From positions 496,001-560,000 of the forward strand of contig CANGYH010000001.1 of assembly GCA_947458545.1 (NCBI GenBank): 64,000 bases of DNA. The letters run 5' to 3'. This document shows, piece after piece, positions 4,095 through 47,034 of the stretch. The position numbers and the translations under genes were made by a program. Position 1 is the stretch's first letter, and each line of letters starts with the position of its first letter. The notes below the pieces were generated by a model. The model did no database searches, was not told where the DNA came from, and saw nothing but the letters and a program-made list of their open reading frames with translations. This stretch comes from Cytophagaceae bacterium. GTDB taxonomy: Bacteria > Bacteroidota > Bacteroidia > Cytophagales > Flexibacteraceae.

Positions 4095-5939
4095 ATGCAA
4101 AAACTATTGAACGGTAGCCTCCTGGGCCTATTTACGGCAACTTTGCTGTCGGGTTGCGCACTTAACTCCATGATTAAGAAGGCCAAAGATCAGGCCATCT
4201 CTGTGGTGCCAGCTCCATTAGAACTTGCCGGAGACAGTGTACGCTTCCGCATGGAGGCAACCTTGCCCGCAGGCCTTCTGCGCAAAAACAAGGTTTACAG
4301 CCTCAAGCCTACCTACAAATTCGGAGATCAACGCACCGAGCTGCCCGAGCTCGTCTTCAAAGCCAAAGACTACCCCAAGGGCAAGCAGATTACTGGCAGC
4401 CGCACCTACGCCTTTGCCTACACCGAGGGCCAGATGGACAAGGGTGTACTGCTCGTGCAAGGCACCGCCTCCAACATCAACGGCAAAGGCAAAAAGACCC
4501 CGGAGGTAGAAATTGCCAAAGGCCTCATCACCACGCCTCGCCTGGTTGACTACAACCAGCCCCCCGCCCAGGTTGATTTCGGCTACAACGCCGGAGACGA
4601 GCTTGAGCCCACCACCGTAGACTTTTTCTTCGAGCAAGGCAAGAGTACCCTGCGCCCCTCTGAGGTTAAATCTACCCGCGGCCAGTTCCTGGATAACTTC
4701 ATTGCCGCCAAGAACGTCACCAAAACGGTGGCCATCACAGGCTCCCACTCGCCAGAAGGCCGCGAGGCCAAGAACGTAAGCCTCTCCGAAGATCGCGCCA
4801 AGGTGATCGAGGCCTACTACAAAAAGAAAATGGCTGACTTTGCCTACGGCCCTAAAGGCAAGCCTGCCAAGCGCAAGAAGGGCAAGCCGGCCCCAGGTCC
4901 GGCCGTAAAAGACTCCAACGCCGTTCAGTTTGTAACCAAGTCGCTCATCGAAGACTGGCGCCCGTTTGTGGATACGCTCAATGCCTACACAGGCTTCTCT
5001 GCCGAAGAGAAGAATCAAATCCTGGGCATCGTAAACGGAGGCACTGGCTCTTTTGCAGAGAAGGAGCTCCAACTGCAGGCCCTGCCCACCTACCCCAAGC
5101 TCTTCACAGAGGTCTACCCCAAGCTGCGCTTTGCCCAGACAGAGATCTTGACCCTGCGCCCCAAAAAGTCTGAGGCAGAAATCGTACTTCTAGCCAAAGA
5201 GGCCGTTGCCGGCAATGCCGAGAGCCTCAAAAAACTCAACGAAAAAGAGCTGGCCTACGCCGCTACCTTATCTGCCGACCTCAACGAGAAGGAGGCCATC
5301 TACCGCGCCTCCATCCGTAAAAACGATATGTGGCAGTCGCACAACAACCTCGGTGCCATTGTCATCGCCAAGGCCCAAAAAGCCACAGGCAACCAGCAGG
5401 CAGAGCTACTGGCCGCCGCCAAAACCAACCTGGCGATCTCCGTCAACAAGCAGCCCAATGCCTTTGCCTATGCCAACATGGCCATCGCAGAGGCCATGCT
5501 GGGTAACCTGGCTGGTGCCAAAGACAACATAGCCAAGGCCGAAAAATCGGCTGACGTAGCCCAGGTTTCCGTCCAGGTAAACGCCGTAAAAGGCGCCATC
5601 GCCGTGCGCGAAGGCAAGTACACCAACGCCATCCAGGCACTAACGGCCGCTGGCAACACACCAGCCTCGGCCTTCAACCTGGGCCTGGCCCTGTTGATGA
5701 CGCGCGACTATGCCGGTGCTACGGCGGCCTTCAACCGCGCGCAGCAGGCGGCACCCGGCATGGCCAAATATGCCTACGGCCAGGCCCTCGCCGCAAGCCG
5801 GCAAAAACAGGCGGGCCAAGCAGCCACAGCGCTTAAGCAAGCTTTTGGGCTAGATGCCAGCCTCAAACAAAAAGCCCTTACAGACGCCGAGTTTACCCCA
5901 ATTGCAGGAAATGACGCCTTCGTCAATGCACTAAAATAG
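4095..5939 (+). CDS. Lipoprotein with OmpA-like and TPR domains
   Basis: 614-aa outer-membrane-type lipoprotein. The N-terminus ends in the lipobox LLSGC (Cys21). A beta-rich region of about 150 residues follows. Next comes an OmpA-like segment at about 175-260 (VDFFFEQGKSTLRPSE, then GSHSPEGREAKNVSLSEDRA), the fold that binds peptidoglycan in OmpA-family proteins, although a roughly 30-residue Lys/Pro/Gly-rich insertion (KGKPAKRKKGKPAPGP) interrupts it. The sequence FTEVYPKLRFAQTEI is typical of Bacteroidota OmpA-like proteins. The C-terminal 230 residues form Ala-rich TPR repeats (NPFAYANMAIAEAML-like units). It probably tethers envelope complexes to peptidoglycan. The T9SS protein PorE combines the same domain types in the reverse order, so a T9SS link is only a guess. 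Confidence 0.8.
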   Translation: MQKLLNGSLLGLFTATLLSGCALNSMIKKAKDQAISVVPAPLELAGDSVRFRMEATLPAGLLRKNKVYSLKPTYKFGDQRTELPELVFKAKDYPKGKQITGSRTYAFAYTEGQMDKGVLLVQGTASNINGKGKKTPEVEIAKGLITTPRLVDYNQPPAQVDFGYNAGDELEPTTVDFFFEQGKSTLRPSEVKSTRGQFLDNFIAAKNVTKTVAITGSHSPEGREAKNVSLSEDRAKVIEAYYKKKMADFAYGPKGKPAKRKKGKPAPGPAVKDSNAVQFVTKSLIEDWRPFVDTLNAYTGFSAEEKNQILGIVNGGTGSFAEKELQLQALPTYPKLFTEVYPKLRFAQTEILTLRPKKSEAEIVLLAKEAVAGNAESLKKLNEKELAYAATLSADLNEKEAIYRASIRKNDMWQSHNNLGAIVIAKAQKATGNQQAELLAAAKTNLAISVNKQPNAFAYANMAIAEAMLGNLAGAKDNIAKAEKSADVAQVSVQVNAVKGAIAVREGKYTNAIQALTAAGNTPASAFNLGLALLMTRDYAGATAAFNRAQQAAPGMAKYAYGQALAASRQKQAGQAATALKQAFGLDASLKQKALTDAEFTPIAGNDAFVNALK

Positions 5940-27960: not shown

Positions 27961-29019
27961 ATGAAAAAACTTCTAGCCCTCGGCTTGAGCCTCTGCCTGC
28001 TATCGGAAGCCCAAGCGCAAGACCCTCAGCTAAGCCAGTATTACGCAGCTCCGCTGTATCTGAACCCTGCCTTCACAGGCATTCACGACTACGACTGCCG
28101 CAAGCTGCCCGCCAGCCGCATTCGCTACATCGGCAACTTCCGCAGCCAGTGGAACGGCACCCATACTACCTACATGGGTTCTATTGACGGCCGCAACAAA
28201 AAAGGTAACTGGGGCTTCGGCGCCCTCGTCTTTCAAGACGTACAAGATATGTCTTCGGCCAGCGCGCCACCTCTCAAGACCTTTCAAGGAGCAGGCCTGG
28301 TCAGCTATCAGCTCGGCATCACAGGCTCGTGGCGCTTGCATAGCGGCGTGCAGCTAGCCTACATGCAGCAAACCTTCGACCCCAGCAACTACACTTTCCC
28401 AGATCAATACCGTATCCCCGGCCGCCTCTCGCCTACCAACGAGACCCTCAGAGGCGCTGGTGCAGCAGCTGCAGCACCTTCGGCTTCAGCCGGTATGCTC
28501 ATCTTCAACAGCGACTTCTACCTTGGCGGTGCCGTCCATCACATCAACCAACCTAATCTCACGGTTGTTGGAGGTTCGCCTTACCGCTACCCCATGAAGG
28601 TCGACGTGCACACCGGCTACCGTATCCCCTTCAAACGCTCCAAGGGCTTTGCCAAGCGTGGCTCAGAGAAAAGCATAACCCCCGTCATCCACTTCAAACG
28701 CCAGGGAAATGCCCAGCAGCTAGACGTCGGCACCTATCTAAACTACGAGCCACTCGTATTTGGCGCCTGGTATCGTGGCCTTCCCGTAGAGCGTACCCCA
28801 AGCGGGCGCCTGCAACAAGACGCCGTGGTCCTTTTGGCCGCCGTCCGTGCCCCGACAGACTATGGCCTCTTCAAAATCGGCCTCAGCTACGACTTTCCCG
28901 TCTCTTACGGAGCCGTCAATGCAGGCCGCACTTTCGAGTTCAGCCTCGCCTATCAGTTTATCGACGAGCGCTGCCGCAAGCGGATAAGCTACCGCGCCAT
29001 CCCCTGCCCGGGCATCTAA
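27961..29019 (+). CDS. PorP/SprF-family type IX secretion membrane protein
   Basis: 352 aa with a signal peptide ending in AQAQ. The opening DPQLSQYYAAPLYLNPAFTG is the diagnostic start of PorP/SprF proteins, predicted outer-membrane barrels. FRSQWNGTHTTYMGSIDG follows. SprF of Flavobacterium johnsoniae is needed to secrete the adhesin SprB, and many type-B cargos have their own copy. Position directly after the 1162-aa cargo gene (19-base gap) makes that cargo the probable partner. A strong terminator follows, so cargo and partner end one operon. Confidence 0.92.
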   Translation: MKKLLALGLSLCLLSEAQAQDPQLSQYYAAPLYLNPAFTGIHDYDCRKLPASRIRYIGNFRSQWNGTHTTYMGSIDGRNKKGNWGFGALVFQDVQDMSSASAPPLKTFQGAGLVSYQLGITGSWRLHSGVQLAYMQQTFDPSNYTFPDQYRIPGRLSPTNETLRGAGAAAAAPSASAGMLIFNSDFYLGGAVHHINQPNLTVVGGSPYRYPMKVDVHTGYRIPFKRSKGFAKRGSEKSITPVIHFKRQGNAQQLDVGTYLNYEPLVFGAWYRGLPVERTPSGRLQQDAVVLLAAVRAPTDYGLFKIGLSYDFPVSYGAVNAGRTFEFSLAYQFIDERCRKRISYRAIPCPGI

Positions 29020-39995: not shown

Positions 39996-42900
39996 ATGAC
40001 TACCTACTTAAGGTCCTTTTTGTTCGGTTTGATTTTCTTGGCTGGTGCTAATGCCCATGCCCAACTCTACCTGAGCCCATCTGGTAGCGATACCAACCCC
40101 GGTACGCAAGCCCAACCCAAGGGCACGTTGCAAGGGGCGCTGTCTGCCATTCCCGTAGGTGGCACAGACGTTATCAGGGTAGCGGCCGGCACGTATGTGG
40201 GCACGGCCAACATAGCCTTGCGCACCTTTACGCTAGAGCCTGCCGATCCCAACGGCCCCCGCCCAGTGTTTACCCAAAACACCGGCACCCAAAACCAGCA
40301 AGCCCTGCTGGCCATAGACGGCTGCCCAAACTCCACCATCAGGGGCATCCAGTTAGACGTAGATCAGTCTTACCTGGTAAACGGCATCACCACCATTGGC
40401 AATTGCACCAACTTCAGGGTAGATAACGTCATAATACGCGCGGTGGGCAGCATTCCTGGCAGGCGGGCAGGCTCGGCCACCAACCCAACCCAGGCCTTGG
40501 CCATAGACGGCAGCAACGTAACTACCTTCCCGAGCGTGGTAATAGAAGGTCTGCAGATTGCCCCCACCTTAGGTACCACCACCGCCAACACGTGGTATTT
40601 CGACCGTGGGCTGCTCTTGCGTGGCGTGCAGGGCCGTGTCGGCGGGCCAAATGCCGCCCAGGCCTGTACCTTCAAAGCAGCCAGAGACATCCTCACCCAA
40701 TTTTTGGCAGGAGGCTCTATGCGGGTAGAGAACAACACCTTCAACGGCGGCGGCATAGACGTTACGCTGCCCCAGTCCACGGCCACCGTTCAATTGGTAG
40801 GCAACCGTTTCGAGCCGCAGAGCACGGCTGCTTGGCTGCTGCCTAACCTCATCTTTCTAAAGCAAAACACCAACGGCGCCCGCATAGAGGTAGATAACAA
40901 CCTTATCAGCGGCTACAGCAATACTGGGCTTCTATCAGCCGGCAGCGCCAACGTTTTTGTCCGCGGCAACCAGTTCTTACCCAACGACACCACCCGCAAT
41001 AACTTCACCTCCCTAGAGGTAAACACCCGCTGGGAGGGCACCACCCAAACACCGGCCGTAGCCAATTCCATCACCATTACGGGCAACACCTTTGGCGCTG
41101 CCCGCGGCACAGCCAAAGGCACCGGCATCCTGTTTAAAAACGAACGCAGGCCCGTGGCCGATGCCTCCTTTGGTGCCCTAACCGTCGGTGGAGCCTCTGC
41201 CGCCGAGGCCAACACCTTTGGCGAAAACCTTGCCAGGTTCATTAAGCTAGACAACCAGCGCCTGCGTACCGTAAACGTAACCCTAGACGTAAGCGGCAAC
41301 CTTTACACCATCGGCGGCTCTGCTCTGTCGCCCGCCGGGATGACAAACGCAGACCTTTTCAGGCTAGAAGACAAACTAGACCACGGCATAGACGACGACT
41401 CCACAGGTTTGCTACGCGTACGGCCGAGCGAGCTCTACATTACCCCCCGCAGCTTTACAGCGCCTCAAACTACCCAGCCCAGTATCCAGCGAGCGGTGTT
41501 TTTCAGCCAGGCCGGAGACATTGTCAACATCAAAGATTCTCTCTACCCACTGCCCGTTGTGGTGAATAAGGGGCTGACCTTCCGCCCCTCGGGCACGGCC
41601 ACCGTCATAGGAGACCTGGCCATACAAACCCCCGGCCCCACAGACCAACTGCTCATAGACAACACAATGGCCACCAGGGGAGTCCTCACACTCACATCTG
41701 GCCGCATATTACTGCAAAACAGCAACCTGAAAGTGCTGGCACCCTCAGCTACCAACCCGCCTACCGGCTCCGATGCCAGCTACGTCATCACCAATGGCAC
41801 GGGCAAGCTGATGCTGGTAGGCCTGGCCACAGAAGACCGCAACTTCCCCATCGGCACGCTCGACGCGTACCGGCCCGTCATCATGGCCAATGCCGGTACG
41901 GCAGATACGGCCTCGCTGCGCATACAGGCCCAGGTGCTGAGCCAGGGCTTTACAGGCACGCCGGTGGATACCGTGGTAGATTTCACCTGGTTCTTTACCG
42001 AAGGCACACCCGGCGCAGGCAACTACACCTTCCGCCCGCAATGGCGCACGGTAGACGAGCGCCCAGACTTTTTCAGAGACCGGGGGTTCCTTCAACGCTG
42101 GAACGCCACCACGGCCTCTTGGGAGTTTCTGACCGGGCCGCGCCCGCCCAACTACCTACCCATCGCCGGCGCCGACCCCTACGTAGCCACGGCCACCGGC
42201 CTGAACCAAACCTTCTCTTTCGATACACCTCTGCGTATTTACGCCCCGCTAGAAATACCAGATACCGTCTTTTACGTTGACGGGATTGACGGGCAAGACA
42301 ACTTCCCTACCCGGTCGGGCCGGACGGCAGAGTTTGCCTGGCGCACACTGCAATACGCCGTCACCAACAGCCGGCGCGTTGCCCCTAGCCGGTTTATCTG
42401 GATTAAGGTACGCTCCGTTGCCCAACCCTATAACCAACCCGTAACCATCCCAGCCGATAAAGGCCGCATGGTTATCAGAGGAGGCTTTGGCGGCGCCGAC
42501 CCTGCCCCGACACTGACCAACGCCACCGGCTCAGACCCCATACTTACAGTATCCGCAGATACCGTCTTGCTCGAAAAGCTGGGGTTGGAGCTGTCAGGCG
42601 CAGGTACTACAACTGGCCTGCGGGGCCAAACCAACTACAACCTCCTCTCGCTCGATAGTTGCATCATCTCGGTAAGCCAGGCCAGCCCAAACACAAGTGG
42701 CATCGTCTTGGAGGCAACCAGCCAGCCTCAGCGCATTGGTTTAACGGCATCCACCATCGGCACAGCGGCAACGCCCTTGGCCACAGGGCTGGCTGCCACC
42801 AATGTATTTGGGCAGATAGGCGGCACGGGCGGGCGCGGCAACACCTTCAATGCGGCCACATCAATAGTTATTACAGGGGCCAATGGGGGCACCCTGTCCG

Positions 42901-44705
42901 CTCGGAATAACACCATCAACAGCACCCGCCGGGGTATCACGGTTCGTGGCGGCAACGGCAGCGTGGTGGTAGCGCAAAACCGCATCAACCCTGCTGGCAC
43001 GGCTGCAGGCACCGGCATCTGGGTAGCAGGCCTCACAGACAACGGCATCAGCCTTACGCTTGACAGCAACCGCCTGGCCGCCGATACCGGCATTGTACTG
43101 GCCAACAACCGCCAAGCCATCGTCAGCAGCAATCAGATTTCCGTAAACCGCATAGGCACCTACGCAGGCTCAGGACTGTCGGGCACCACCTTCCCGGCCA
43201 GCGTGGCGGGCAGCCTTCAGTTTACAGGCAACACCATAGGCGCAGCCGCTGGCTCTGCCCTGGTAGGCATCGTTCTTGGCCACGAGGGCCGCAGCGCAGG
43301 CGTAACCCCAGCCTTCAGCCAGGTTACGATAGGCAATCCGTCAGCCCTTAACACCTTCGACGTTAACCTCCCCCGCTTCATAGAACTGCAAAGCACCGCA
43401 GGGGCTGAGTTTGATGTAAACTTCGATGGCCGCAACAATCTGTTCGGCACGGCCGGCGGGCCCAAACTACCCGTCGCCATGACCCAACCAGAGCTTTTCG
43501 AGCTAGAAGACAAGGTCGTCCATAAGATTGACTTTGCCGCCTTGGGCCTTGTCCGCATGCGCGACAACCAGCTTTACGTCACCCCGGCAAGCTTCATCAC
43601 CCCCCGTACCGCTACGCCCTCCATCCAGCGGGCCGTAGTGCCTTCCGCAGAGGGAGACCAGGTCTTCATCCAAAACGGCCTTTACCCCGATACGGCCCGC
43701 ATAAATAAAAGCCTGACCTTTGTGCCGGCAGGCACACGTGTGGTAGAAAACAACCTCGAAATGATCGGCCCCGGCCGCCAACTTACCCTCAACGGCCCCT
43801 TCACGCTAAGGCGCGGTCTTACACTTACAGACGGTAAAATCCGCCTCAATGCCGACAACCTGATTGTAGAGCAAACGGCCCTGCCCATCATTGGAGGCAA
43901 CAGCGGTAGCTATGTGCATACCAGCGCCGCAGGCAATCTTGTGCTCAAAGGCCTTGGCCAAGGAGCCCGCACAGATTCCACCCTCTTCCCCATCGGGTTA
44001 GAGAACGACTACAACCCTGTCTTTGTGCGCAACGGCGGTGTGGCAGACACTTTTGCCGTACGCATGCTGCCCGATGTGTTCACCGGCGGGCTTACGGGCG
44101 TATCCGTTCAAGACTCCGTCGTACGGGCTTCGTGGGTCGTCACAGAGTCGCTGCCAGGCGGCAGCGAGCTTCGCCTGCGCCCCCAGTGGAACGAAAGCCA
44201 AGAGAAGGCCCAGTTCCGCCGCAATCGGGTGGGCATTCAGGGTTTCTTTGCCAACGTACCCGGTGTCACGGGGCCCATCTGGGAGCCAGACGTCGTGCTC
44301 TCCGTACCGGTTGATGGCAACAACCCCTATTCAGCAGCGCGTGCCTTTCCGGCTGCCCGCAGCTTTGTCAATACGCCCGTCCGCGTCATCTCTTTGCCAG
44401 ACCTGAAGGACGACGTCTTCATCCCCAGCCTCTTCTCGCCCAACGCAGACGGCAACAACGACGTGCTCCTGGCCTACTCAAACACCGTCCAGTCCATCAG
44501 CCTCAAGATCTTTAACCGGCATGGCAACCTGGTCTATGAGGCCAACGACCCCACCCAAGCCCTCACCACCGGCTGGGACGGCACCTTCAACGGCCAGCCT
44601 TGCAAGCCCGACGTGTACGTCTGGACGCTGACCGGCACCTTCCAGAACGGCAAGCCCCTTTCGGCACTGGGCAAAACCACCGGCCATATCCGCCTCATCC
44701 GCTAA
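39996..44705 (+). CDS. Giant T9SS type-B cargo with duplicated beta-helix region
   Basis: 1569 aa with a signal peptide (LRSFLFGLIFLAGANAHA). The sequence after it, LYLSPSGSDTNPGTQAQPKG, is a DUF1565-like start of a right-handed parallel beta-helix; N-x-F/I-x-G-N repeats run through the body. Residues about 22-740 and 750-1465 are two copies of one design (each with a beta-helix, a PxxFLxLEDKxDH-like segment, a TxPSIQRAV repeat and a FRPQW end), so the gene arose by an internal duplication. The C-terminus from FIPSLFSPNADGNNDVL to GHIRLIR is the type-B T9SS domain. A PorP/SprF gene follows after 13 bases. Carbohydrate binding or cleavage is possible from the fold, but no catalytic motif was recognised. 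Confidence 0.87.
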   Translation: MTTYLRSFLFGLIFLAGANAHAQLYLSPSGSDTNPGTQAQPKGTLQGALSAIPVGGTDVIRVAAGTYVGTANIALRTFTLEPADPNGPRPVFTQNTGTQNQQALLAIDGCPNSTIRGIQLDVDQSYLVNGITTIGNCTNFRVDNVIIRAVGSIPGRRAGSATNPTQALAIDGSNVTTFPSVVIEGLQIAPTLGTTTANTWYFDRGLLLRGVQGRVGGPNAAQACTFKAARDILTQFLAGGSMRVENNTFNGGGIDVTLPQSTATVQLVGNRFEPQSTAAWLLPNLIFLKQNTNGARIEVDNNLISGYSNTGLLSAGSANVFVRGNQFLPNDTTRNNFTSLEVNTRWEGTTQTPAVANSITITGNTFGAARGTAKGTGILFKNERRPVADASFGALTVGGASAAEANTFGENLARFIKLDNQRLRTVNVTLDVSGNLYTIGGSALSPAGMTNADLFRLEDKLDHGIDDDSTGLLRVRPSELYITPRSFTAPQTTQPSIQRAVFFSQAGDIVNIKDSLYPLPVVVNKGLTFRPSGTATVIGDLAIQTPGPTDQLLIDNTMATRGVLTLTSGRILLQNSNLKVLAPSATNPPTGSDASYVITNGTGKLMLVGLATEDRNFPIGTLDAYRPVIMANAGTADTASLRIQAQVLSQGFTGTPVDTVVDFTWFFTEGTPGAGNYTFRPQWRTVDERPDFFRDRGFLQRWNATTASWEFLTGPRPPNYLPIAGADPYVATATGLNQTFSFDTPLRIYAPLEIPDTVFYVDGIDGQDNFPTRSGRTAEFAWRTLQYAVTNSRRVAPSRFIWIKVRSVAQPYNQPVTIPADKGRMVIRGGFGGADPAPTLTNATGSDPILTVSADTVLLEKLGLELSGAGTTTGLRGQTNYNLLSLDSCIISVSQASPNTSGIVLEATSQPQRIGLTASTIGTAATPLATGLAATNVFGQIGGTGGRGNTFNAATSIVITGANGGTLSARNNTINSTRRGITVRGGNGSVVVAQNRINPAGTAAGTGIWVAGLTDNGISLTLDSNRLAADTGIVLANNRQAIVSSNQISVNRIGTYAGSGLSGTTFPASVAGSLQFTGNTIGAAAGSALVGIVLGHEGRSAGVTPAFSQVTIGNPSALNTFDVNLPRFIELQSTAGAEFDVNFDGRNNLFGTAGGPKLPVAMTQPELFELEDKVVHKIDFAALGLVRMRDNQLYVTPASFITPRTATPSIQRAVVPSAEGDQVFIQNGLYPDTARINKSLTFVPAGTRVVENNLEMIGPGRQLTLNGPFTLRRGLTLTDGKIRLNADNLIVEQTALPIIGGNSGSYVHTSAAGNLVLKGLGQGARTDSTLFPIGLENDYNPVFVRNGGVADTFAVRMLPDVFTGGLTGVSVQDSVVRASWVVTESLPGGSELRLRPQWNESQEKAQFRRNRVGIQGFFANVPGVTGPIWEPDVVLSVPVDGNNPYSAARAFPAARSFVNTPVRVISLPDLKDDVFIPSLFSPNADGNNDVLLAYSNTVQSISLKIFNRHGNLVYEANDPTQALTTGWDGTFNGQPCKPDVYVWTLTGTFQNGKPLSALGKTTGHIRLIR
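40056..44400 (+). repeat. Two-copy internal duplication inside the giant cargo gene
   Basis: Unit 1 spans about 40056-42240 and unit 2 about 42256-44400. Matching landmarks keep the same order and an offset near 2.15 kb: ITGNTFGAA and FTGNTIGAA (about 41075 and 43220), ENLARFIKL and VNLPRFIEL, LFRLEDKLDH and LFELEDKVVH, QPSIQRAV and TPSIQRAV, and FRPQWR and LRPQWN. Protein identity looks only moderate, so the duplication is old. Confidence 0.75.
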
Positions 44706-44718
44706 TCCTCAAGTCGAT

Positions 44719-46116
44719 ATGCAAAACAGCTACCGTTTCCTCGCATTATTGCTGCTGGCAGCCACTTGGGGTACCGCCGCCCGGGCGCAAGATCCTGCCT
44801 TCTCTCAGTATTACAACACGCCTTTTCTGACCAACCCGGCCATGCTTTCCTTTCGGCCAGACATGGTGGTAGGGGCCAACTTCCGGTCTCAATGGGCGGG
44901 CCTGGGCCAGGCCTACACCACCACCATGGTCAGCGGGTTTTACCCCATTCTGAGCAAGAACAAGCTGCGTCAGTTCGGGGCCGCAGGCGGTTTCGTTATG
45001 TCAGACAGGCAACCCGTGGGCTCCATCAATACCACCAGCTTCGGGCTGGCGGGGGCCTACAAGTTGCCGCTCAACTATGCCAACTTCGTGCATTTTGGCA
45101 TCCAGCTCGGGTACTTCCAACGCTCTTTAAGCCTGGACGGTGCCACCACCGGCAGCCAGGCACAAAACAACTACTACAACCCCAGCCTCCCCCTCAACGA
45201 AGGCACGCTAGACCAGTCTCGCGGGGCGGGCACCATAGCCTTGGGGGCCTCTTGGGTAAACGAAGATGTGGACGGCGACATCCGTGCCCAGGCAGGTATT
45301 TCGGCCTTCCACATGAACGCCCCCAACATCAGCTTCACCCCCGGCTTTTCAGACAACATTTACCGCAACATCATAGCTACGGCCACCGTGCGGGCCGTTA
45401 AGGCGCCTGGCTTTTCGCTCTATCCGGGTGCCCGCTATATCTGGCAGGGCAACGCCCACAAGCTCAATGTAGGCGGCCTGGCCCGCTTTGGCATATCACC
45501 CGGTGGCCGAGGCCCCAACGCCGGCAAAAAAGACGCTATGTTCGGCGCAGGCACCATTGGCTTTGGCCTCTTCTACCAAGCCGTAGACGCCTCGGCGGCC
45601 ATTGCCACCGTAGAGCTGGTGCAGCCCCGCTATGCCGTCAGCGTCAACTACGACCTAGGCGTTGGCCAACTAAAAGACGGTAGCACCCGAGGCAACGCGA
45701 CGGAGTTCTTCGTCTGCTATCGCAAGACGCTCGGCAAACGCCGCAAAGTGGACCTGCGCTACTTCAAAACCAACAAAAACGGCGAGCCTGCCGAAGGTGC
45801 CAATCCTGGAGGCACAGCGCCCGACCCTGCCCCGGCCCCTACCCCGCCAGAGCCACAAGCCGCCCCAACAACTGAGCCTGCCCCAGCCCAAGCCGCGCCA
45901 GCCCCTGCAGACAAACCTGCGGCGTCTGCTGCTGCTCCGGCACCTGCGCCTCAGCCTAAGGTTAGCCCTGCGCCAACAACGGCCAAAGCACAGGCAGCCA
46001 AAGTCACCACCGCCAAGGGCAAGAAGAACACCAAAGCCGCCAAAGCCAAGGCAAAAGCCAAACGGAAGGCCGTCAAACGATCTGGCAGGCGCAGAGACAT
46101 TCGCATGGGGCGGTAA
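44719..46116 (+). CDS. PorP/SprF-family protein with Ala/Pro and basic C-terminal tail
   Basis: 465 aa. After a signal peptide ending in ARAQ, the start DPAFSQYYNTPFLTNPAML is the PorP/SprF signature, and the barrel part continues to about residue 349. The last 116 residues are foreign to the family: first a Pro/Ala stretch (DPAPAPTPPEPQAAPTTEP), then about 45 residues rich in Lys, Ala and Arg (KGKKNTKAAKAKAKAKRKAV, ending RRRDIRMGR), resembling histone-H1-like or peptidoglycan-binding tails. If the barrel sits in the outer membrane, the tail would face the periplasm. It is 13 bases after the giant cargo gene and is its likely secretion partner. Confidence 0.88.
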   Translation: MQNSYRFLALLLLAATWGTAARAQDPAFSQYYNTPFLTNPAMLSFRPDMVVGANFRSQWAGLGQAYTTTMVSGFYPILSKNKLRQFGAAGGFVMSDRQPVGSINTTSFGLAGAYKLPLNYANFVHFGIQLGYFQRSLSLDGATTGSQAQNNYYNPSLPLNEGTLDQSRGAGTIALGASWVNEDVDGDIRAQAGISAFHMNAPNISFTPGFSDNIYRNIIATATVRAVKAPGFSLYPGARYIWQGNAHKLNVGGLARFGISPGGRGPNAGKKDAMFGAGTIGFGLFYQAVDASAAIATVELVQPRYAVSVNYDLGVGQLKDGSTRGNATEFFVCYRKTLGKRRKVDLRYFKTNKNGEPAEGANPGGTAPDPAPAPTPPEPQAAPTTEPAPAQAAPAPADKPAASAAAPAPAPQPKVSPAPTTAKAQAAKVTTAKGKKNTKAAKAKAKAKRKAVKRSGRRRDIRMGR

Positions 46117-46149
46117 CCGCCCCCCTGTGCGCAAGCCGTCGGCAGGCCC

Positions 46150-46157
46150 AATCTTTG
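46150..46157 (+). promoter_or_regulatory. Candidate -7 box before the hydroxyacyl-CoA dehydrogenase gene
   Basis: AATCTTTG matches all but the first base of TAnnTTTG and ends 7 bases before the ATG at 46165, in the short gap after the PorP gene. Another possible leaderless start. Confidence 0.35.
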
Positions 46158-46164
46158 CACCTGC

Positions 46165-47034
46165 ATGAGGGCATACACAGTTTCTGATATTCAAACCGCT
46201 TTGGTGGCAGGTGCCGGTACCATGGGTGCCGGTATCGCCCAGGTTTTGCTGGCCAATGGCCTTCGGGTACATTTGATTGACACCCGGCCTGCCGCACTAG
46301 AGGCTGCGCGTCAGTCCATAGCAGATAGGTTTGCCTCCATGCACGCAAAAGGCAAATGGGCTCAAGACCCAGGCCTTACCCTAGAGCGCCTCAGCATAGG
46401 TACCCTAGACGACGCACCTGCCTTCCAGCTCATGATCGAGGCTATTGCTGAGATTCTGGAGGTCAAGCAGGCCCTGTTTGCTGCGGCAATGGCCCATATG
46501 CCAGATGCCATTTTTGCCACCAATACCAGCAGCCTTTCCGTCAACGAACTGGCCGCCTCCTTGGTACAAAAAGATCGCTTCGTCGGGTTGCATTTCTTCA
46601 ACCCGGCCCCGCTCATGCCTCTGGTAGAGGTAGTGCAGGCAGACACTACGCCCGATTGGCTGGTAGAGCTGTGCCATGCGTTGTGCCAGACCTGGGGCAA
46701 GGCCCCGGTCATAGTCAAAGATTCCCCCGGATTTATCGTTAACCGGGTAGCCCGCCCTTTCTACGCCGAGTCTATGCGCACCCTGGCAGACGGAGCGGCA
46801 TCCTTCCAGGCCATAGACCATGCCCTAAAAGGCCAGGGCTTCAAGATGGGCCCCTTCGAACTTATGGACCTCATCGGCCTGGATGTGAACTACAACGTAA
46901 CCAAACTCGTCTGGGAGGGGCTGGGCAAGCCCGCTCGCTTTACGCCCAACCCTGTGCAGGGAGACCGCGTAGCCCGCGGAGACTGGGGCATCAAAACCCA
47001 CAAAGGCTTCTATGACTACCCCAAAGACGCTTAA
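46165..47034 (+). CDS. 3-Hydroxybutyryl-CoA dehydrogenase
   Basis: 289 aa, typical of single-domain-pair 3-hydroxyacyl-CoA dehydrogenases (Hbd/PaaH). They oxidise 3-hydroxyacyl-CoA to the 3-keto form with NAD. The Rossmann site VAGAGTMGAGIAQVLL, ATNTSSLSVNELA, the catalytic His in VGLHFFNPAPLMPLVEVV and DSPGFIVNRVARPF are all present, and the C-terminal domain has GFKMGPFELMDLIGLDVN. It may work with IcmF in butyryl-CoA metabolism, or in fatty-acid or polyhydroxybutyrate pathways. The 3' end overlaps the next gene by 23 bases. Confidence 0.93.
   Translation: MRAYTVSDIQTALVAGAGTMGAGIAQVLLANGLRVHLIDTRPAALEAARQSIADRFASMHAKGKWAQDPGLTLERLSIGTLDDAPAFQLMIEAIAEILEVKQALFAAAMAHMPDAIFATNTSSLSVNELAASLVQKDRFVGLHFFNPAPLMPLVEVVQADTTPDWLVELCHALCQTWGKAPVIVKDSPGFIVNRVARPFYAESMRTLADGAASFQAIDHALKGQGFKMGPFELMDLIGLDVNYNVTKLVWEGLGKPARFTPNPVQGDRVARGDWGIKTHKGFYDYPKDA

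Follow-up and report, generated by a model that had tools for sequence, protein, structure and literature searches.

The gene at positions 44719 to 46116 of the studied window (the whole 64,000-nucleotide stretch, positions 496,001 to 560,000 of contig CANGYH010000001.1 from a Cytophagaceae bacterium) encodes an outer-membrane carrier of the PorP/SprF family that ends in a long basic tail. According to the reading that we favor, with a probability of roughly 55%, it is a carrier of the PorP-OmpA clade from which the OmpA domain is gone, whose basic linker now forms a free C-terminus, and which is dedicated to the beta-helix cargo encoded upstream, with the tail proposed to act as a weak tether. 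Direct computation shows the membership in family and clade, the match of the cargo, the lack of OmpA both in cis and in the neighboring genes, and the disorder of the tail. Judged by sequence comparison, the gene most likely encodes a PorP-OmpA carrier that lacks the OmpA domain, which was probably lost rather than never present. Since 68 of 69 long carriers have an OmpA-like domain and 6 of the 10 fusions in the same family have a comparable Lys-rich linker, the oddity is the absence after the tail and not the tail itself; these counts, together with the clade and the matching cargo, make a PorP-OmpA linker the best reading of the tail. The features concerned are as follows.

44719-46116, + strand: PorP/SprF-type carrier gene, 465 amino acids (aa) plus stop (open reading frame, PF11751, TIGR03519, PorP-OmpA clade in barrel trees)
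44785-45732, + strand: 14-strand outer-membrane barrel, residues ~23-338, after a predicted signal peptide (AlphaFold2, Foldseek)
45766-45975, + strand: tail residues 350-419, rich in Pro and Ala (21 each among 70; predicted local distance difference test, pLDDT, below 50)
45976-46113, + strand: Lys/Arg/Ala-rich tail end, residues 420-465 (12 Lys, 7 Arg, and 11 Ala among 46)
39996-44705, + strand: cargo of 1569 aa, a right-handed beta-helix whose type B sorting domain spans residues 1476-1569 (PF13585, TIGR04131, PF13229)

Membership in the PorP/SprF carrier family is demonstrated by profile matches, the barrel fold, and the adjoining type B cargo gene. PorP_SprF (PF11751) covers residues 22-333 (E 1.5e-29, 103.8 bits, curated cut-off 22.3), and TIGR03519 covers residues 8-335 (144.9 bits, curated cut-off 90.55). 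The AlphaFold2 model contains strands up to residue 338, with blocks of pLDDT up to 83, and falls below 50 for residues 341-465; with an alignment of six sequences, the mean pLDDT reaches only 56.7, and the model was therefore taken as indicating a barrel and disorder, no more. Foldseek matches of the model are outer-membrane barrels, while a search of solved structures for sequence relatives gave none that was convincing (best E 0.23). The barrel thus ends near residue 338 and is followed by approximately 125 disordered residues, Pro/Ala-rich first and strongly basic after. The original prediction of a PorP/SprF protein with 116 extra residues, Pro/Ala-rich and then basic, is borne out by both profiles and by the composition listed above, as is its remark that the other PorP of the window lacks such a tail: that protein (27961-29019, 352 aa) ends in a short Cys-containing peptide. 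The first scan of contigs, queried with the window protein, matched no relative, and the relatives found on plasmids are two records with 27% identity, in the barrel only.

The last 46 residues of the tail include only one acidic residue and have a net charge of +18. Shuffling of the bases of these codons yielded a net charge of 6.1 +/- 3.8, and only 14 of 20,000 shuffles reached the observed charge without a stop, so the charge of the tail end is unusual for its bases. The 116 residues encoded by 45766-46113 matched no Pfam family at E 0.1 and gave only a poor NCBIfam match (E 0.099). A tandem-repeat array was looked for in the tail and none was found; repeat expansion was therefore rejected as its origin.

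The relatives were collected from 11 genomes of the same family, in which the genus of the window is represented by one genome only. They contain 85 PorP/SprF matches (E 1e-12); the genome of the window has nine matches to the family, eight of them above the cut-off. The number of residues after the barrel is below 60 in 74 of the 85 proteins and at least 187, with an OmpA domain, in 10; in the window protein it is 123, and OmpA is absent. The family at large mostly ends 5-40 residues past the barrel. The earlier statement that the family normally ends with the barrel holds at that level and fails for the clade of the window protein, where a linker and OmpA domain are present in 68 of the 69 proteins of at least 450 aa; likewise, the comparison of C-termini that had been suggested finds long tails to be rare in the family, while comparable Lys-rich linkers occur in 6 of the 10 same-family fusions.

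Two trees of the barrel place the window protein among the fused carriers. In the careful tree (78 rows, after omission of 19 near-duplicates and of 9 rows whose branches were long or whose ends were cut), the smallest starred set that contains the window protein comprises 32 rows, and 30 of these are OmpA-fused carriers (support 100/99); the quick tree (106 rows) contains the identical set with a support of 99. The two other members are the window protein and a 350-aa carrier from genome G009, which is the neighbor and sister of an OmpA-fused carrier. The 21 rows from other families were found with a profile that included OmpA and are therefore biased to fused proteins, a bias from which the same-family rows are free. 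The barrel thus belongs to the PorP-OmpA fusion clade, either nested within it or at its base.

A barrel-only profile of the clade gave 109 matches in 61 of 390 genomes of the order. Their open frames fall into two length classes: up to 380 residues (40 matches) and 484-808 residues (68 matches), with none between 381 and 483; a single frame of 5005 residues (G018) was left out of the domain counts. The 68 long matches, the window protein included, and one more same-family fusion constitute a set of 69 proteins of at least 450 aa. An OmpA-like domain was detected in 68 of them by the profile built here and in 65 by Pfam at E 0.01; the window protein is the sole exception by the former and lacks the domain by the latter too. 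No PF00691 match was obtained for it even at E 0.1, so its C-terminus carries no recognizable OmpA domain, and there is none in the adjoining genes. The 12 OmpA matches of its genome all lie elsewhere, the nearest approximately 39 kb from the carrier. As candidates for a displaced domain these were rejected: all 12 lack the Cys-type motif that is frequent in fusions of the same family, and a tree of this short domain did not resolve their relationships. A 614-aa lipoprotein-like protein encoded within the window (4095-5939) has a weak OmpA match followed by TPR-like repeats, as seen by eye.

Residues 420-465 of the window protein occupy the place after which relatives go on into the OmpA domain. 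The charge of linkers was expressed as the net charge of the most basic 40 residues after the barrel, which is +17 for the window protein and G009, +14 for G002 and G006, +13 for G001 and G005, +12 for G010, and between 6 and 9 for G003, G004, and both G008 fusions. A basic linker (at least +12) precedes OmpA in 6 of the 10 same-family fusions vs. 1 of 21 from other families, and in that one the basic stretch is at the end of the OmpA domain. This comparison suggests that the histone-like linker is a trait of the family of the window, accompanying the OmpA domain in 6 of 10 fusions. The closest counterparts (the fusions of G009, 607 aa, G001, 613 aa, and G002, 607 aa) share the barrel clade and a homologous upstream cargo, and their linkers are Pro/Glu/Lys-rich and then lysine-rich, like the window tail; unlike the window protein, they continue into an OmpA-like domain of ~90 residues.

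The cargo gene ends 13 bases upstream of the carrier, and its product matches TIGR04131 with 42.5 bits (cut-off 35). It is also matched by the cargo proteins encoded ahead of OmpA-fused carriers in G001-G006 and G009; when the sorting domain was removed, the match was kept for G001-G004, G006, and G009 (E 2.6e-33 to 1.7e-132), the G005 contig including the cargo end only. For loci from other families, the upstream DNA is too short for a judgment. Outside its own locus, the sorting domain is again matched best by cargo proteins of OmpA-fused-clade carriers. The large cargo had been suggested to explain the need for a tail, an idea that we abandon because homologous cargo bodies lie upstream of OmpA-fused carriers.

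Several observations weigh against the favored reading. The approximately unbiased (AU) test did not reject a grouping of the other 31 rows to the exclusion of the window protein (p-AU 0.389), and a carrier that never had OmpA is thus possible. Only one genome of the genus is among the 11, so the tail is documented in a single genome. The low-complexity linker is not reliably alignable, its likeness to the tail being one of composition and place. In the OmpA domains of the 68 fusions (69 rows), the Asp of the GHTD motif, which we take to be the peptidoglycan-binding Asp, is replaced by Cys in 41 rows and kept in 25, while Arg is retained in 66; wall binding by the lost domain itself is therefore uncertain.

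The main competing explanation, which we consider improbable but worth serious attention, is that truncation or rearrangement removed the OmpA domain and left behind a linker without function, now drifting as the tail. Consistent with it, the next gene, which begins 48 bases past the stop codon of the carrier, differs from that in loci of genus g2 (a glycosyltransferase-like frame there, identified by eye), as expected from rearrangement of a 3' end, and the sampling of one genome of the genus speaks in its favor as well. Against a drifting remnant stands a tail end whose charge lies far above the shuffle mean (+18 vs. 6.1) and which is as basic as the most basic linker among relatives (+17 per 40 residues). 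The reading frame is open to its end, although this is a weak point, since a recent loss would look alike.

It is unlikely that the window lineage split off before OmpA joined the barrel, the tail being original and the domain a later gain of the relatives. The AU result allows this order of events, whereas the homology of the cargo body to the cargo at six same-family loci with OmpA-fused carriers, the near confinement of the Lys-rich linker to this family, and the occurrence of OmpA-fused relatives in many families of the order all speak against it. Somewhat more doubtful still is a tail that docks on periplasmic parts of the type IX or gliding machinery instead of the wall. The genome of the window does encode a GldK-like protein, and the short C-tail of SprF is disulfide-bonded to GldK in Flavobacterium johnsoniae, according to the accessible part of PMC12635249; the window carrier, however, has no Cys after residue 333 (itself within the last barrel strand) and thus no SprF-like Cys tail, and it is the PCP-tail carriers of the same genome that have tail Cys instead. 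A frameshift or assembly error joining an unrelated frame to the barrel, which the original prediction had named as refuting it, was checked and rejected as very improbable, because OmpA is matched in none of the six frames of 45600-46400 (best E 1.1); third-position guanine-plus-cytosine content is 0.74 in the barrel and 0.57 in the tail, and the synonymous codons used in the Pro/Ala part fit other frames better, which we count against the frame as read, but third-position content also drops in the linkers of 6 of 7 relatives, and this frame yields their Pro-then-Lys pattern.

Long C-terminal extensions are a minority habit of the PorP/SprF family, as follows from a phylum-wide sample of 61 genomes, where 107 matches (E 1e-20) were found in 14 genomes and only 10 have open frames of at least 440 residues, the window protein included. 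Of the remaining nine, OmpA forms the end of three and SPOR that of one, three have Lys/Ala/Glu-rich C-terminal extensions, and two are extended N-terminally; in four of the seven C-terminally extended carriers the extension is ended by a Pfam domain. The SPOR fusion (G028, 450 aa, L217:924-2273) resembles the window protein in having a barrel and a Pro/Glu/Lys linker and differs in ending with SPOR, a peptidoglycan-binding domain. Three PorP carriers from one family in the same class (L218, L219, and L220) extend 640-1197 residues beyond the barrel, for the most part as TolA-like repeats rich in Lys, Ala, and Glu; two of their ends are SPOR-like by eye, without a Pfam match, and the third seems frame-slipped near its end. 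Two further carriers (L214:774-2099 and L215:542-1978) have 100-130 extra residues ahead of the barrel.

The carrier can be compared with two characterized systems, in both cases within the available text of the cited reports. SprF of F. johnsoniae has the same kind of barrel and a periplasmic C-tail (PMC12635249), which is a short Cys-X-Cys tail bonded to GldK, whereas the tail of the window protein is long, basic, and free of Cys. The location suggested earlier, a basic tail in the periplasm near the wall, is therefore a fair reading; what does not stand is the view that the tail was added to a family ending with the barrel. In Porphyromonas gingivalis, PorE binds PorP and its C-terminal domain binds peptidoglycan (PMC9143113). 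This pair combines a carrier barrel with an OmpA-type wall-binding function, as does the clade of the window, with OmpA residing on a separate lipoprotein in the former, fused to the barrel in the latter, and absent in the window protein. By analogy with SprF and SprB, the barrel would take the cargo from the SprA translocon via its type B domain and retain it on the surface. The tail would hang in the periplasm, where it would be long enough to reach the wall, and its charge may let it bind anionic envelope polymers (for example, peptidoglycan or lipid A phosphates) weakly and non-covalently, a hold that would stand in for a folded wall-binding domain. Such weak tethering by the tail is our preferred guess.

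Other carrier classes differ in their periplasmic partners. In 24 same-family loci, chosen by tail class rather than at random (two of them with OmpA-fused carriers), an OmpA gene lies directly downstream of 7 of 7 Trp-ending carriers, 5 of 5 with IPC/VPC/IPS tails, 2 of 5 with TPRI/SPLY, and 0 of 5 with PCP tails. The downstream proteins scanned contain OmpA (8/8) and the PD40 propeller repeat (7/8), a layout resembling that of PorE in the available description (PMC9143113). The Cys-tailed PCP class has, in these loci, neither an adjoining OmpA gene nor OmpA in cis. The idea that a Cys tail marks carriers lacking an OmpA neighbor was dropped, as an OmpA gene lies directly downstream of all five IPC/VPC/IPS carriers, of which four have Cys. 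Short C-tails (loci L056-L143 and L192-L211) form classes (PCPKF-like, TPRYRK, RPSMW/SLKVW, KRFDTPRI, and IPC.KF) that follow the barrel tree and differ in the downstream OmpA-domain gene.

We found no description of PorP-OmpA or PorP-SPOR fusions in the accessible parts of the literature searched (including PMC9143113, PMC12618676, PMC12635249, PMC9581022, PMC5053529, and PMC6851124), and a search on lysine-rich tails of outer-membrane barrels, limited in the same way, found nothing on point. As far as the available text of PMC9143113 conveys, immobile type B cargo is proposed to be fixed to the wall via PorP-PorE complexes, and mobile cargo such as SprB is not; natural PorP-OmpA fusions are what this proposal would predict, and the window gene is a natural experiment with the OmpA domain missing. 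Tentatively, the polybasic tail may have replaced the OmpA-type domain as the wall tether and, in general, what a carrier class is fixed to in the periplasm may depend on its C-terminal part (a short peptide, a Cys tail, fused OmpA, fused SPOR, or a polybasic tail). If this is true, the hold on a giant surface protein would have passed from a binding pocket to bulk charge. The fusions and the window gene together make the periplasmic attachment of the carrier testable by swaps of tails and domains.
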